Shown here piece after piece: positions 47,667-54,500 of a DNA stretch of 64,000 nt. The stretch's first letter is position 1, and every line of letters begins with the position of its first letter. The notes under the pieces are model-generated. The model did no database searches. It was not told where the DNA came from and saw only the letters and a program-made list of their open reading frames with translations. The DNA lies in NCBI RefSeq assembly GCF_017603825.1, contig NZ_CP072014.1:3968001-4032000 (forward strand). Reading direction: 5' to 3'. This DNA comes from Arthrobacter crystallopoietes (lineage in GTDB: Bacteria; Actinomycetota; Actinomycetes; Actinomycetales; Micrococcaceae). Made by a program: the position numbers and the translations under genes.

Positions 47667-47948
47667 GTGCCCACGTACGCCTATGCCTGCAAAGATTGCA
47701 GCCACGCTTTCGAGATCCAGCAGTCCTTCAGCGATAACTCGCTGAGCGTTTGCCCTGAGTGCAGCGGCAACCTGCGCAAAAAGTTCAACAGTGTCGGCGT
47801 CGTTTTCAAGGGTTCCGGCTTCTACCGGACCGATTCACGCGATACGAAGAGCACCAGCACGGTTCCGGCCGCCAGCAAGTCCGAAAGCCCGGCGTCGGCG
47901 CCTGCCGCGGCACCCGCACCGGCCACTGCCGCCCCCGCTGCCAGCTAG
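47667..47948 (+). CDS. FmdB-family zinc-ribbon protein (Rv0991c/Ruc-like)
   Basis: The 93-residue protein has a CxxC...CxxC zinc ribbon at Cys8, Cys11, Cys29 and Cys32 (YACKDCSHAF, VCPECSG), then a GFYRTDSR segment and a disordered Ser/Ala/Pro tail. The mycobacterial relative Rv0991c is a redox-regulated chaperone whose partner is Hsp70. The gene order (next to fau) and the CIRCE operator upstream support the same role here: a heat- and oxidation-responsive holdase. The start is GTG at 47667 with AGGAGG six bases upstream. The leader from the -10 region is about 70 bases. Confidence 0.85.
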   Translation: MPTYAYACKDCSHAFEIQQSFSDNSLSVCPECSGNLRKKFNSVGVVFKGSGFYRTDSRDTKSTSTVPAASKSESPASAPAAAPAPATAAPAAS

Positions 47949-48097
47949 AAACCTGCCTTAGCAGTACGCCACCCGGGATGCCACGGCACCCCGGGTGTTC
48001 TGCGTCCGGTGACGTTCCTTTCCTCCACAACAGGAACTACCGCAGCCCCCGTGCACAATCCGCGGCAAACCCCTGCCCCGCTGGCTCCCGGCGTCCT

Positions 48098-48103
48098 TAC
48101 TGT
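48098..48103 (+). promoter_or_regulatory. -10 hexamer, leaderless promoter of the SAF-domain gene
   Basis: TACTGT, six bases, then the ATG at 48110. No Shine-Dalgarno sequence precedes the ATG. Confidence 0.45.
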
Positions 48104-48109
48104 GGCCCT

Positions 48110-48769
48110 ATGCAGCATTCACCCCGGGCGACCCTCCCGTTCCTTGTCCGGCGTCTGATCAGGCGCCATTACCGACTTATCGCAGCTGCCCTGCTCTGCG
48201 CAGCCGCCGGACTCACGGTCCATGAGCTCACTCCGGCCCCGCATGAGACCGTTCCCGTGGTCACTGCGGCCGCAGACCTGGCTGCGGGAACCGTCCTGGC
48301 CGATTCGGATCTGGTGACCGGCAGACTTCCCGCCTCGGCCGTGCCCTCCGGATCAACTGCTTCAGTCCACGACCTGACGGGAAAACGGCTGGCCACGGCG
48401 TTGCGGGCCGGTTCCCCTGTCCTGGATACCTCGATCGTGGGTCCCGGGCTCCTGGCCGGTAGCCCGCCGGGCACCGTCGCGGTTCCGGTTAGGCCGGCTG
48501 ACCAGTCGACGGTGCAACTGCTCAGCCCCGGCCAACGGGTGGACATCGTGCTCAGCACCGGCAACGGTTATGAAGAACCGGCAGCCTCGGAAGTGCTGGC
48601 AAGCGACGTGCCCGTGCTGTGGAAGGCCGGGAGCACCACCGACGGTTCCGGGCTGTTGGGCCGCCAGGAAAGCGAAGGCCTCGTGGTGGTGGCAGCATCA
48701 CCGACCGAAGCCACGGCGCTGGCAAGTGCGTCGAGCCGGGGCACGGTCTTCCTGGTCCTTGTGGGTTAG
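48110..48769 (+). CDS. SAF-domain membrane protein (CpaB/RcpC-like)
   Basis: The 219-residue protein has one membrane helix (about residues 21-37), then a SAF domain (about 45-110: VPVVTAAADLAAGTVLADSD, GKRLATALRAGSPVL). A CpaB-type region follows (VAVPVRPADQSTVQLLSPGQ, then RVDIVLSTG). CpaB proteins are pilus-assembly components, but there are no tad/pilus genes here, and isolated SAF proteins next to fmdB are common in actinobacteria from memory. It is therefore better called a SAF-domain membrane protein of unknown role. It is convergent with the helicase-like gene, three bases apart. Confidence 0.78.
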   Translation: MQHSPRATLPFLVRRLIRRHYRLIAAALLCAAAGLTVHELTPAPHETVPVVTAAADLAAGTVLADSDLVTGRLPASAVPSGSTASVHDLTGKRLATALRAGSPVLDTSIVGPGLLAGSPPGTVAVPVRPADQSTVQLLSPGQRVDIVLSTGNGYEEPAASEVLASDVPVLWKAGSTTDGSGLLGRQESEGLVVVAASPTEATALASASSRGTVFLVLVG

Positions 48770-48772
48770 GAG

Positions 48773-51700
48773 TCAGCCCCAGTGAGGCGGGCGCTGTTCC
48801 TTCAGCCAGGCGTCCCGGTCCTCCCGGTTGTCGCCCCAGGCACTCGGATCGTCCTCTTTGGCCCGGTCCGGAATGGCACTTTCGCGAAGCGCCGCCGCGG
48901 CGGCCTTCCGTGTTTGCGGTTGCTGGTCCTGGGGTTCCGCCTGGGCTGCGGCGCCTTCGGTGGGGTCGACGGAATTGTCCGTGCCGCCTGCCTGCCGGTC
49001 CCCGGAACGTTCCGCAGGCTTGTCCTCCTTGGCCAAGTGCCTTCCCGTCCCTTCTTGATCCGGATCCTGTAGTCCCAAGTATCCTCCGATCAGCCGCGCG
49101 CACTTCTCCGGGTCGGCAAAAACTTCGATGGTCCACAACGTCAGCGGACGCCATCCGAGCCGCTCCAGCAGCTGTGGCCGCAGCCGGCTGCGCTCGCGCA
49201 CACTCATCTTCCGGTACTGCGACGTGCCGTCCGACTCCAACGCCACCGGCAGGGTCGGATGGTGGTCTCCCGGCAACTGCAAGGGGTCTGCCGCTGCGAC
49301 AATGTCCAGGATTCCCCGGTAGTGGTCCTGCACCTGCGCGCCGCGGCTGCGGATCCGCTCGACCAGATCCGCGACGAGCGGATCATCAATCCCGGCAGAG
49401 GCAGCTGATACGGTTACCCCGCCGGTACCGAGCTTGCGGTTGATCAGTTCATAGAAATCGATGGCACCATGGCTCAGCCGATCGGGATCAAGGTCTTCGG
49501 GTCGGAAACATGTGAGCACCCGCAGCGAACGCCGGGCCCGCGTCATAGCCATGGCGAACCTGCTCCGGCCATCCGGCTCCGACAAAGGGCCGAAGTTATG
49601 CACTGCCCGGCCATGCGGCGTGCGGCCGTAACCAAGTGAAAAGACGATGTCGTCTCGGACCAGCCCGGAGGACCGCTCCACGGGAACCACGCGGAAGGAA
49701 TCCTCCGCCCGCTTGAAGAACTCCGAAGCCGCAGGATAATTGGGCATTTGCAGACGGATCGCCTCAGCCACGCGTGCCGCGTGGCGGACCGTGGAGGTGA
49801 TGACGGCAAGCGAACGCTGGGGCCGGTGACGTGCGTGTTCAAACACCAGATCCACAACCCGGTTGATTTCCGCCGGAACGCTTTCAACACCCTCATGGCC
49901 GGCACCGGGCAGGCCTGTTCCGTCCGGCAGGTATTCCACCACGAGTCCATCACCGCCGGTGATTTCGCAGGCGGAGGGGAGCCGGGTGAGGGCGCCGTCG
50001 TAAAATTCCTTGCTCAACGACTGCGCCAGTTCCATGTCGACCGCGCGGTACAAGGTGGTCAGCGGAAGTACCGGCAGGACACGTGCCAGCGCGTGATAGC
50101 TGCTGATGACCGGATCCGTCTCGGTGCCCGGCGCTAGGTCGCGCTTCCGGTCCACATTGACTTCAAACGGTTCCGCCATGCCCAGCTGGCCGTCGCCGAA
50201 GGCGATGACCTGCTCTGCCCGTGCCATGGCTCCGACCGCGGACTGCAGGCTAGTGGCTTCGGCGTCGAGAATAATAACGGCATCGAACCGTTTCTGGGCC
50301 GGCAGTACCATCGGCAGAACCAGCGGTGAGGCCGCCCAGACAGGCATCAATGACGATACCAACTGGCCCGACTGCTCGCTCAAGGACCGCAGGGTCGGTT
50401 CGGAGGTCTTGAGCATCTCCCGCAGCCGCTCCGCCGCCTTGGGCTGGCTCTTGATGGCGTGCCGCCAGTTCTGGGCCAGCTCCCACCGCAGACGTGCCGC
50501 GCCGGACGCGATATGGGCGTTATCGGCCAGCCGGTAGACCGCTTCCAGCTTGCGCAGGTTGTCGCCGTCGGACATGGCCAGATAGTCGTCACCGCTGATC
50601 ATGGCTTCCAGGGCCGACTGCCACCAAGCAAGGTCCAGTTCGGCGCCGACATTCTCGGTAGCCACTTCACGCTCGGCCAGATCATCCAGCAGTTCGCCCA
50701 GACCGTGCTCGCGCATCTGCTCCAACAGCAGGGTCCGCTCCGGCAGGTTCACCAGCGTCTCGCGGTCCGCCGCCAGTGCTTCCAACCGCTCCACCAGTGC
50801 GTCCTGGTCCAGGTCGGCCAGCAGCACGCCGTCGGCCGGTTCCGCAAGGAGCCCGGAAAGCTTTTGCAGCTTCTTGTGGATGCCGAGGTAGAAACTGTTC
50901 AGTTCCGCCAAGCCGGACGGCACCGACGGATGACGCTGCGTGGTGGCGTATTCGGCCCACTTGCTGCGCTGCTGCTGCACGTCCGCCAGGGACTCGTGCA
51001 GGTCCGAGATATGAACGCCGGGACGCACATATTCCTTGGCCACCCGCCGCAGTCGGGACCGGGTCATGGAGCTCATTTCGATCCCGCGCTCGCGCCGCCA
51101 CCCGGAAGAGGCCGTTGCGGAAATCAGGTCCGTGACCGGCCTGTCGAAAATGTCCGGCGTGAACTTGTCCAGGCTGCCGCGCACGGCGACCAGCAGCAGG
51201 AGCTGCTGCCCCCATTCGCGGAAGCTGGTACCCAGGGAAATCTGGGAATGCTCCGCCACCCGGTTCATCTGCTCGCGCAGCTTGGGAATGTCGCGAGCCA
51301 GATCAACAGAAAGCTGGTGGGCGTCTTCGGTTTCCTTGCGGTTGAGCAGCTTGGCACCGAACCACGGGCTGTTGGTCGAGGACTTGCTGAAGCTGCCTAG
51401 TTCCGCCGCGCGGCGCAGCCGGCCGGTCAGTTCGGCCCGGTCGGCGATGCTGTCCAGCACGGAGCGCTTGAGCCGGACTGTGGTGGCCGGAGCCGGATCC
51501 AGCGAGGTGAGCTTGGCCAGCGACTGCATGGCTTGGTACGGCGAGCAGTTCCAGCGCTTGCGGACATTGTGCAGCGACTGAACATGGTCCATCAGCTGGT
51601 GGCGGTGGTCGTTGAGCGTGCTGTGCAGTTTTTCCAGCTGCGGCGCCGTGGCCTGCTCATTGCGCATGATGGCCCGGACCAGCTGGTCCTTAAGCTGCTG

Positions 51701-52795
51701 GCTGGTGATATTGGCGTTCAGCTGCAGCACCAGGGAACCGAGCTTGAGCTCGTCGAGCTGCTTGGCGAACTGGTTCAGCGTAGTGCGCCGCTCCGCCACC
51801 ACCAGGACGGATTTGCCTTCGAAGGCCAGCGTCGCCGCGGCATTGATGGCGGTCTGGGTCTGGCCTGTGCCCGGCGGCGCGGAGACGACCACCGAGTGGC
51901 CGCTCTGGACCAGATCCAGGACGTGCTGCTGGGCCGGGTCCGCGTCAAGCACCAGGAACTCGTCCTGCGGTGCGCGCTCGTCCAGCGGCGGCAGGTCCAC
52001 CTCGGGCACGGGCACGTGGTAGCCGGTTTCCGGATCCAGATCTGCCGCCATCATGGCGTTCAGCAGCGGATGCGCGGAATCCAGCACGGAGGTATCGGCA
52101 GTGTTCGCCACATCGGCGAAGGTGGAGACCAGCAGGTGATGCTCGATGGTCATGCTGCGCACATCCTGCGTCAGCGACCGCAGCCGCTCCAGCACCGGAT
52201 GCGGATCGAACCGTGCGGTGCTGTACGCCAGCCGGGCCACGCCTTCGGGGTCGATGTCGAGGCCCTGTTCGGCTTCAAGGTGCCTCACCAGCGCCGGGTT
52301 GAGCCTGGCCTGGTCTGTGAGCTGGAGTTCGTAGTCATCCTGGCTGGGCCGGACCGTCAGCGCCACCGGGGTGAGCATGATCGGGGCGTTCAGGGTCTCG
52401 GACCGGCCAACCTCGGGAACACGCCAGGAGGCCGTGCCCGCCGCAAGATAGCCGACGTCGATGCCGCGCTCCGTGCCGAGCTCGAAGATTTTGGAGCGTA
52501 GGCTGCGGGCGGTCTTCATCGCCGCCGAGTACTGCGCCTGGTCCCGCAGCAACGTGGACAGCCGGGTACGCCGACCGGTCAGCAGCTGGGCAAGACCGGA
52601 CGGATGGGCATGGGTGAGGTCGATGCTGTTCGTCGAGGATGGCGCGAAGTACAGCAGGGTATCTGTTCCCGCGTGCTGGCCCAGCTGTTTCAGCCAGTGC
52701 GTCAGAATATCCTCGGCAGCCTCGTCAGTGCGATCGCGCGACACGGCTACTCTCTTTTCTTCACTCTCGGGCACAAGCCTTGACCAAATTGGCAT
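48773..52795 (-). CDS. Large helicase-nuclease-like protein with degenerate ATPase motifs
   Basis: The 1,340-residue protein has the plan of DUF4011-type SF1 helicases joined to a Vsr/EDxHD-like nuclease. After about 280 N-terminal residues comes a Walker A region, SAPPGTGQTQTAINAAATL (about 305-323), where the catalytic Lys is Gln312 (codon 51860-51862). Next come a long coiled region and a motif II region, VIILDAEATSLQ, where DEAS is changed to DAEA. GDGQL (motif III), DIVFSLGYGRTPHGRA (motif V region) and FAMAMTRARRSL (motif VI) follow. The nuclease-like end (about 1155-1245) has VALESDGTSQYR and RERSRLRPQLLERLGW. The last 95 residues are hydrophilic. The ATG at 52795 is seven bases after TAGTTT; GTG 52744 is an alternative start. 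Confidence 0.8.
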   Translation of the reverse strand: MPIWSRLVPESEEKRVAVSRDRTDEAAEDILTHWLKQLGQHAGTDTLLYFAPSSTNSIDLTHAHPSGLAQLLTGRRTRLSTLLRDQAQYSAAMKTARSLRSKIFELGTERGIDVGYLAAGTASWRVPEVGRSETLNAPIMLTPVALTVRPSQDDYELQLTDQARLNPALVRHLEAEQGLDIDPEGVARLAYSTARFDPHPVLERLRSLTQDVRSMTIEHHLLVSTFADVANTADTSVLDSAHPLLNAMMAADLDPETGYHVPVPEVDLPPLDERAPQDEFLVLDADPAQQHVLDLVQSGHSVVVSAPPGTGQTQTAINAAATLAFEGKSVLVVAERRTTLNQFAKQLDELKLGSLVLQLNANITSQQLKDQLVRAIMRNEQATAPQLEKLHSTLNDHRHQLMDHVQSLHNVRKRWNCSPYQAMQSLAKLTSLDPAPATTVRLKRSVLDSIADRAELTGRLRRAAELGSFSKSSTNSPWFGAKLLNRKETEDAHQLSVDLARDIPKLREQMNRVAEHSQISLGTSFREWGQQLLLLVAVRGSLDKFTPDIFDRPVTDLISATASSGWRRERGIEMSSMTRSRLRRVAKEYVRPGVHISDLHESLADVQQQRSKWAEYATTQRHPSVPSGLAELNSFYLGIHKKLQKLSGLLAEPADGVLLADLDQDALVERLEALAADRETLVNLPERTLLLEQMREHGLGELLDDLAEREVATENVGAELDLAWWQSALEAMISGDDYLAMSDGDNLRKLEAVYRLADNAHIASGAARLRWELAQNWRHAIKSQPKAAERLREMLKTSEPTLRSLSEQSGQLVSSLMPVWAASPLVLPMVLPAQKRFDAVIILDAEATSLQSAVGAMARAEQVIAFGDGQLGMAEPFEVNVDRKRDLAPGTETDPVISSYHALARVLPVLPLTTLYRAVDMELAQSLSKEFYDGALTRLPSACEITGGDGLVVEYLPDGTGLPGAGHEGVESVPAEINRVVDLVFEHARHRPQRSLAVITSTVRHAARVAEAIRLQMPNYPAASEFFKRAEDSFRVVPVERSSGLVRDDIVFSLGYGRTPHGRAVHNFGPLSEPDGRSRFAMAMTRARRSLRVLTCFRPEDLDPDRLSHGAIDFYELINRKLGTGGVTVSAASAGIDDPLVADLVERIRSRGAQVQDHYRGILDIVAAADPLQLPGDHHPTLPVALESDGTSQYRKMSVRERSRLRPQLLERLGWRPLTLWTIEVFADPEKCARLIGGYLGLQDPDQEGTGRHLAKEDKPAERSGDRQAGGTDNSVDPTEGAAAQAEPQDQQPQTRKAAAAALRESAIPDRAKEDDPSAWGDNREDRDAWLKEQRPPHWG

Positions 52796-52910: not shown

Positions 52911-54500
<1,590 letters not shown>

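Follow-up and report, generated by a model that had tools for sequence, protein, structure and literature searches.

A fixed pseudo-helicase of the DUF4011 helicase-Vsr family carrying a fused module of an apparently undescribed microprotein family in Arthrobacter crystallopoietes

Introduction

Why would a bacterial order keep a very large helicase gene whose motor motifs are lost? The question is raised by a gene of Arthrobacter crystallopoietes in a stretch of 64,000 nt of contig NZ_CP072014.1 (the window; all coordinates are positions of this whole stretch). A single open frame on the minus strand runs from an ATG at 52795 to a stop at 48773 and encodes a protein of 1,340 amino acids. From the frame, Pfam and fold matches, this core protein appears to be made up of a DUF4011 region, a Upf1-like superfamily 1 (SF1) helicase core, an MTES_1575/Vsr-like domain, a linker and a microprotein tail, all read on the minus strand. 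The N-terminal MPxWSR is kept in 13 aligned Micrococcaceae members of the pseudo-helicase, and the ATG at 52795 is therefore favoured as the start. An earlier reading of the bare sequence (the sequence-only reading) had noticed three damaged ATPase motifs in an intact frame, and had proposed that helicase activity may have been lost while DNA binding and nuclease function were kept, or that the protein may work as a sensor, in a family linked to antiphage defence. We find that, within the DUF4011 helicase-Vsr family, the gene represents a pseudo-helicase branch that is fixed and is joined to a module of an apparently undescribed microprotein family. The reading that we favour, with a probability of about 0.5, is that the protein is an old, vertically inherited pseudo-helicase serving as a non-catalytic nucleic-acid-binding scaffold that displays the microprotein peptide. 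A gene of 1,340 codons that is near-universal yet motor-less would be an unusual case of an order keeping a pseudo-helicase. A literature search, mostly of titles only and with PPHW matches covered just in part, found no paper on the pseudo-helicase gene or the microprotein.

Loss of the Motor Motifs

Three motifs of an active SF1 helicase are missing from the protein. The Walker A segment SAPPGTGQTQT (residues 305-315; 51851-51883) reads GTGQTQT, with Gln312 (codon CAG, 51860-51862) in place of the Lys. Motif II, ILDAEA (residues 842-847; 50255-50272), reads LDAEA and has no DE, and motif V, SSGLVRDD (residues 1042-1049; 49649-49672), has no QGxE. Orthologues with intact motifs align at the same sites with GTGKSQT, DEAS and QGDERD, which rules out a real Walker A elsewhere in the protein. 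The Asp of motif II is offset by one residue from that of FDEAS in the alignment, and a D-to-D match hinges on one gap. Motif VI is present (TRARRSL, residues 1085-1091; 49523-49543), with its Arg1088 in 98/106 order rows. The damaged motifs, the Gln codon and the remaining motif VI are thus as the sequence-only reading had described them, and the loss of the motor motifs is borne out.

The loss is not confined to this genome. The Micrococcaceae alignment comprises 117 rows, 112 of them different; Gln stands at position 312 in 107 of the 117 and Lys in none, so that the close relatives with an intact GKT that would have pointed to recent decay were not found. Recent decay of one lineage is ruled out by the clade-wide occurrence of the degenerate motifs. 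Across the order, 107 rows are not gapped at the site of the Lys; it is absent in 98 of them and occurs in nine, from f5 and f17 (f-numbers are family codes of the sample); the other residues include Gln (28), Ala (18), Val (14) and Gly (11). When all three motifs are taken together in the 117 orthologue rows that cover them, Lys, DEA and a QG-type motif V are all missing from 107 and all present in 10, under a motif V rule that also accepts QGF; L087 is counted as intact only loosely, by way of its QGF.

The damaged P-loop is itself conserved in Micrococcaceae, with G309 in 100% and G311 and T313 in 97%, and D844, G867, D868, R1086 and R1088 are each found in 97-100%. Such conservation would suit a protein that has remained an ATPase by means of a non-canonical site, in which GTGQTQT and the shifted acidic motif II bind, and perhaps slowly hydrolyse, nucleotide. 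We consider this very unlikely, since Lys, DEA and QGxE were lost together, the P-loop is unrecognisable elsewhere in the clade, in families other than Micrococcaceae (e.g. GADVTGT, PKGTAEQ), and, according to the accessible part of PMC4504706, Deinococcus PriA with Arg at the position of the Walker Lys shows no ATP hydrolysis. The window protein probably cannot hydrolyse ATP either.

A quick tree of 74 rows was built with the motif columns removed; its support is by approximate likelihood-ratio test (SH-aLRT) only, and it has some long branches and uneven composition. Twelve of the 15 multi-row families come out as clades, the exceptions being f3, f7 and f13. Within one clade, of 51 rows, 50 have no Lys and the 51st (L045) has a gap at the position, and the Lys state changes at least four times. 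From the intact state of the paralogues and of the outgroup rows (all five order paralogues examined have the Walker Lys), we infer that the direction of change was loss of the motor motifs. On this inferred direction, a clade-wide loss of catalytic motifs would place the protein among the pseudohelicases as the term is used for Deinococcus radiodurans PriA. The gene in two records, L165 (Acidobacteria bacterium G2_11) and L228 (Sporosarcina beigongshangi), is nested among Micrococcaceae on a separate FastTree tree of the Micrococcaceae rows, and these are probably misnamed or contaminated contigs.

Distribution, Locus and Selection

Genome samples were searched at E<=0.001, and matches at E<=1e-70, read from the tables, were called strong. 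The pseudo-helicase was matched in 59/59 relatives (the genus includes a genome with 96% identity), in 295/295 genomes of the family sample (294 strong; G101 weak, 6.3e-8) and in 197/198 of the order sample (193 strong; G360, G414, G446 and G466 weak; G347 none). The six assemblies with a weak or negative result are fragmented, with 160 to 610 contigs. Both reduced genomes seen, of 0.8-0.9 Mb, have the gene. In the class sample 111/148 genomes match; as read from the tables, those of full-length strength come from ten order genomes, ten of f38, one of f25 and one of f45, and the remainder are paralogue-like or short helicase matches.

The position of the gene is conserved as well. It is flanked by a gene at 52911-54500 (minus strand), which we take to be guaA, for GMP synthase, and by a convergent gene at 47759-48769 (plus strand), presumably SAF/CpaB-like. 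The latter is found at many order loci and also beside standalone microproteins. Among 37 family loci, each with limited flank, guaA is present in 35, SAF in 31 (one weak), FmdB in 27 and 5-FCL in 19, and by our count 54/71 loci of other order families hold at least one of SAF, FmdB and 5-FCL. Loci with intact motifs share this neighbourhood (SAF in 2/3 of f5 and 7/10 of f17). None of the three genes was seen in the stretches examined of f10, f11 and f16 (five loci). The 5-FCL/FmdB/SAF neighbourhood is absent at the paralogues (0/5), and the intact and degenerate order forms are therefore positional orthologues.

The gene is under purifying selection. Omega, the ratio of nonsynonymous to synonymous rates, calculated by NG86 for seven pairs within the genus, is 0.047, 0.079, 0.075, 0.145, 0.097, 0.224 and 0.158 for the whole protein, the values being rough in two pairs with synonymous divergence (dS) near 1. 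The intact frame had been taken as a sign that the gene is maintained, and these values together with its near-universal presence in the order agree. A middle region (residues 421-815; 50351-51535), mostly helical in the model, has omega 0.015-0.198 and is the lowest region in three of the seven pairs. It contains the stretch of lowest column entropy in the whole protein, ELDLAWWQSALEAMISGDDYLAMSD (50567-50641). The linker (48881-49075) is weakly constrained (0.32-0.93), lies outside the predicted model and is probably disordered; the tail has omega 0.036-0.343. Omega is undefined in one of the seven pairs for the linker and likewise for the tail.

Family and Fold

DUF4011 (PF13195) was matched with 36.8 bits against a Pfam gathering cut-off of 22.2, over residues 84-173 of an N-terminal region that we cut at residues 31-280 (51956-52705), and DEAD with 27.1 bits against a cut-off of 26. 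REase_MTES_1575 (PF18741) reached 28.8 bits, under its gathering cut-off of 38.2.

An AlphaFold2 model of residues 32-1231, made with 73 sequences, has a mean predicted local confidence (pLDDT) of 84.6 and a predicted TM-score (pTM) of 0.73. Foldseek found 79 matches at E<=0.001 in the PDB, the best to senataxin (E 2.5e-12); the 50 listed include senataxin, spliceosomal entries including Aquarius, IGHMBP2, Dna2, UPF1, coronavirus nsp13 and HelD. By sequence search of the PDB, nothing better than E 0.3 was obtained. The SF1 helicases Upf1, IGHMBP2, senataxin and Dna2, which are among the best fold matches, are active ATPases; they share 9-18% sequence identity with the window protein in the rows listed. 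MTES_1575 of Microbacterium testaceum, as presented in the accessible part of PMC3710099, likewise combines an SF1 helicase with a Vsr-type restriction endonuclease (REase). It exceeds 2,100 amino acids and has HEPN (listed there as active), transglutaminase and winged helix-turn-helix domains, whereas the window protein has 1,340 residues, is degenerate and has none of these three domains by Pfam.

The Nuclease-Like Domain

The MTES_1575/Vsr-like domain (49076-49384) contains LESDG at residues 1186-1190, as the sequence-only reading had it, and RERSRLRPQLLERLGW at residues 1200-1215. Asp1164, Glu1187 and Asp1189 are present, and Tyr stands where some paralogues have His; we take these Asp/Glu/Asp and His positions to be the catalytic ones of the domain. 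The protein might accordingly be a pseudo-motor and still a nuclease, the helicase part recognising DNA and the Vsr-like domain cutting it. The three acidic residues and the RERSRLRPQ..LGW core kept in the window protein speak for this, as do their frequencies in Micrococcaceae (Asp1164 91%, Glu1187 82%, Asp1189 100%). The order tells against it: Asp1189 is found in 106/106 rows, but Asp1164 only in 54/105, Glu1187 in 41/106 and His at 1194 in 1/105, versus 2/5 of the paralogues. Asn replaces Glu1187 in two of the ten species of the genus itself, and the Pfam score is under the cut-off. With this order-wide erosion, the order is unlikely to be conserving the domain for catalysis, and the data do not support nuclease function as the cause of the gene's retention. 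We regard a cutting role as unlikely, although, judging from the residues, nuclease activity may persist in some Micrococcaceae.

The C-Terminal Tail and Its Standalone Homologue

The last ~35 residues of the protein (48776-48880), ending in AIPDRAKEDDPSAWGDNREDRDAWLKEQRPPHWG, are a separate conserved module that the sequence-only reading had overlooked. Profile matches show this module to be homologous to a standalone actinobacterial microprotein of ~45-60 amino acids. The large frame ends in ..WGD..WLKEQRPPHWG or a close variant at 57 of 80 named Micrococcaceae loci. At each of the remaining 23 the peptide follows closely downstream, either in the same frame beyond at least one stop (8) or in a different frame (15). 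The tail continues in the same frame past one or more stops of the big gene at L157, L158, L184, L169, L180, L222, L225 and L220. At L195, L198, L201, L205 and L208 the frame of the split tail and the end of the big gene overlap, and a complete AGGAGG precedes a GTG or ATG of the tail frame, an arrangement that suggests translational coupling. Readthrough of the stop or programmed frameshifting was also considered as a means of joining the split tail. A start with at least four bases matching the Shine-Dalgarno (SD) sequence was found in 12/23 split loci (up to 60 codons upstream) and in 33/57 fused loci (up to 45 codons); since it occurs in both alike, the pattern does not decide the matter.

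Beyond the family, a profile built from the Micrococcaceae tails (locus hits at E<=0.05) found the tail in frame in 30 of 108 order loci and in a separate frame in 51, all on the same strand and downstream of the big gene; one locus (L037) gave a hit without PPH, and 26 gave none in the stretch. When the 32 genomes without a locus hit (26 of the order, 6 others) were searched whole, a match at E<=0.1 was obtained in 26, several of them weak. By eye, a plausible frame can be made out in 13 of the 26 hit-less order loci, with PPHW, PPHF or PPHY at or close to its end. In the class sample the microprotein was matched in 89/148 genomes (79/127 of the good ones), exactly once in each, and in the phylum sample in 6/119, all six within the class.

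Thirty class loci around the best of these hits were inspected. SAF is present in 23, always on the opposite strand (convergent). Part of the big gene occurs at 10 loci; at 13, SAF occurs with no part of it, and four of these 13 come from f38 genomes in which the big gene lies further off. Ten longer stretches without a DUF4011 match were also covered: in six (L264-L268, L272) the microprotein lies by SAF and FmdB, and in the other four (L269, L270, L271, L273) it does not. Seven f38 rows share a frame of 45 amino acids with a conserved ATG behind GAGG-containing bases. Over all pairs of these rows, 143/245 base differences fall at third codon positions and 118 codon differences are synonymous against 97 that are not, which suits a translated gene. 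The standalone copies among L234-L274 have ~45-60 amino acids and end in PPHW or PPHH. Five standalone forms matched no Pfam or NCBIfam model, and the microprotein, which is probably a new family, offers a concrete new target. In the genome of the window no second protein with the same tail was found. A short RPPHW DNA pattern gave 9 matches versus 8 for its control, which is chance level.

The selected element could in principle be the microprotein, with the helicase part having no function of its own beyond the expression or stability of its neighbour. Some families do have the microprotein although no big gene was found in them, and it is kept in all 80 named loci, fused or split. The big gene itself has low omega, however, and the two reduced genomes keep it, whereas the search for the microprotein there yielded only a divergent downstream frame containing PPHF, plus weak hits elsewhere in one of them. 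On balance this explanation is highly improbable. The fusion to the big protein suggests a partner for the microprotein, whose function thereby becomes testable. One may go further and propose, tentatively, that the pseudo-helicase and the class-wide microprotein form one housekeeping module of the Actinomycetia. The pseudo-helicase would be an order-wide nucleic-acid sensor or loading platform and the PPHW microprotein its docking peptide for some central machinery, for example RNA polymerase, the replisome or a complex of DNA repair, with fusions and splits reflecting joint work.

A Proposed Non-Catalytic Scaffold

The motif loss, ubiquity, selection, locus, fold and tail together point to a scaffold role. 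According to this reading, the SAF/FmdB locus of the order would have carried a DUF4011-type Upf1-like SF1 helicase that bears a Vsr-like domain at its C-terminus. The ATPase motifs of this protein would have disappeared in an ancestor shared by most order families, and separately in a few others, and the fold would have been kept under selection as a non-catalytic platform that binds nucleic acid. In the window lineage the microprotein gene directly downstream would have been joined to the pseudo-helicase by the flexible linker, and the WG...PPHW peptide might now act as a tethered binding tip that recruits a partner.

Precedents for such a scaffold are D. radiodurans PriA, the nuclease-like domain of RecC and the helicase-like region of AddB, each described here from the accessible part of its source. 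PriA, too, is a bacterial helicase with degenerate Walker motifs kept clade-wide: its Walker A and B are poor throughout the phylum, and the retained protein binds DNA, with evidence for contact with DnaB (PMC4504706). It belongs to another helicase family, and that part of the report mentions neither a nuclease-like domain nor a peptide tail. The inactivated nuclease-like domain of RecC (PMC1185551) and the inactivated helicase-like region of AddB (PMC4824097) serve DNA handling and Chi recognition.

Several observations weigh against the scaffold. The TM-scores of the 50 listed PDB matches are low (0.15-0.51), so the class of the fold is fixed and its details are not. The change counts on the tree, as its program states, cannot tell gain from loss. 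SAF was seen in only 1/10 of the f38 stretches, although a longer f38 stretch (L274) has both FmdB and SAF, with SAF two genes away: a single gene separates the microprotein from SAF, and another separates it from the big gene. On a FastTree tree of the Micrococcaceae rows (77 fused, 39 split, 1 unknown) the fused or split state changes at least 11 times; tethering is therefore not strictly needed, and fusion may be a by-product of adjacency. Finally, the only in-frame ATG, GTG or TTG codons of the window gene from residue 1201 on are TTG at residues 1220, 1240 and 1254, and that at 1240 has GGAGG upstream, so that a separate short tail product appears possible from the sequence.

Defence Models and Mobility

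A domesticated antiphage gene, that is, a motor-less sensor still serving phage defence, would be another way to account for the protein, and the sequence-only reading had noted that DUF4011-helicase-Vsr fusions have been proposed as antiphage systems. The PADLOC model PDC-S37, which has no stated cut-off, gives 396 bits (best stretch residues 599-1261 to model positions 696-1360 of 1550), and the five order paralogues examined have the Walker Lys. The antiphage model ProA (NF058533) gives 346.7 bits, far under its curated cut-off of 1500, as does Hhe (NF042953) with 171.7 bits against 2000. In the matched parts these systems share with the window protein DUF4011, the SF1 helicase and the Vsr-like C-terminus; the window protein differs in its lost motor motifs and in being near-universal and positionally conserved in the order. 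Defence genes are usually patchy in distribution, and both genomes of 0.8-0.9 Mb keep this one. We therefore think a defence role rather unlikely and the antiphage filing not justified, and retain the non-catalytic scaffold as the preferred reading. The models PDC-S37, ProA and Hhe touch a core gene that is probably not a defence system, and with PDC-S37 scoring 396 bits on it, flagging by defence scans throughout the order is possible.

A mobile defence gene was rejected too. A scan of viral contigs, which reaches close relatives only, yielded no confirmed relative, and one phage record gave a weak match (22.9% identity). Matches to plasmid records, 347 in number, are all below 60% identity, and only the one from Actinomyces oris reaches a query coverage of 80% or more (91% covered at 30% identity). 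This match lies at 381028-384750 of NZ_CP116225.1 (H1), a 415 kb A. oris record filed as a plasmid, and by sequence it looks like a core orthologue. A DUF4011 gene is also core in Pseudomonas aeruginosa, where, as far as the accessible part of PMC10250203 goes, it flanks a defence hotspot and is present in every isolate of that study.

RecC was rejected as an identity for the protein because no PF04257 match was found in the genome of the window, the control being found in E. coli. RecC and AddB act within RecBCD and AddAB, whereas the gene of the window is not beside the pair of large PDDEXK_1 frames of its genome. These two adjacent frames, probably an AdnAB pair as we take it, lie at G000:C1:3915217-3919298, with the window beginning ~49 to 53 kb further on.

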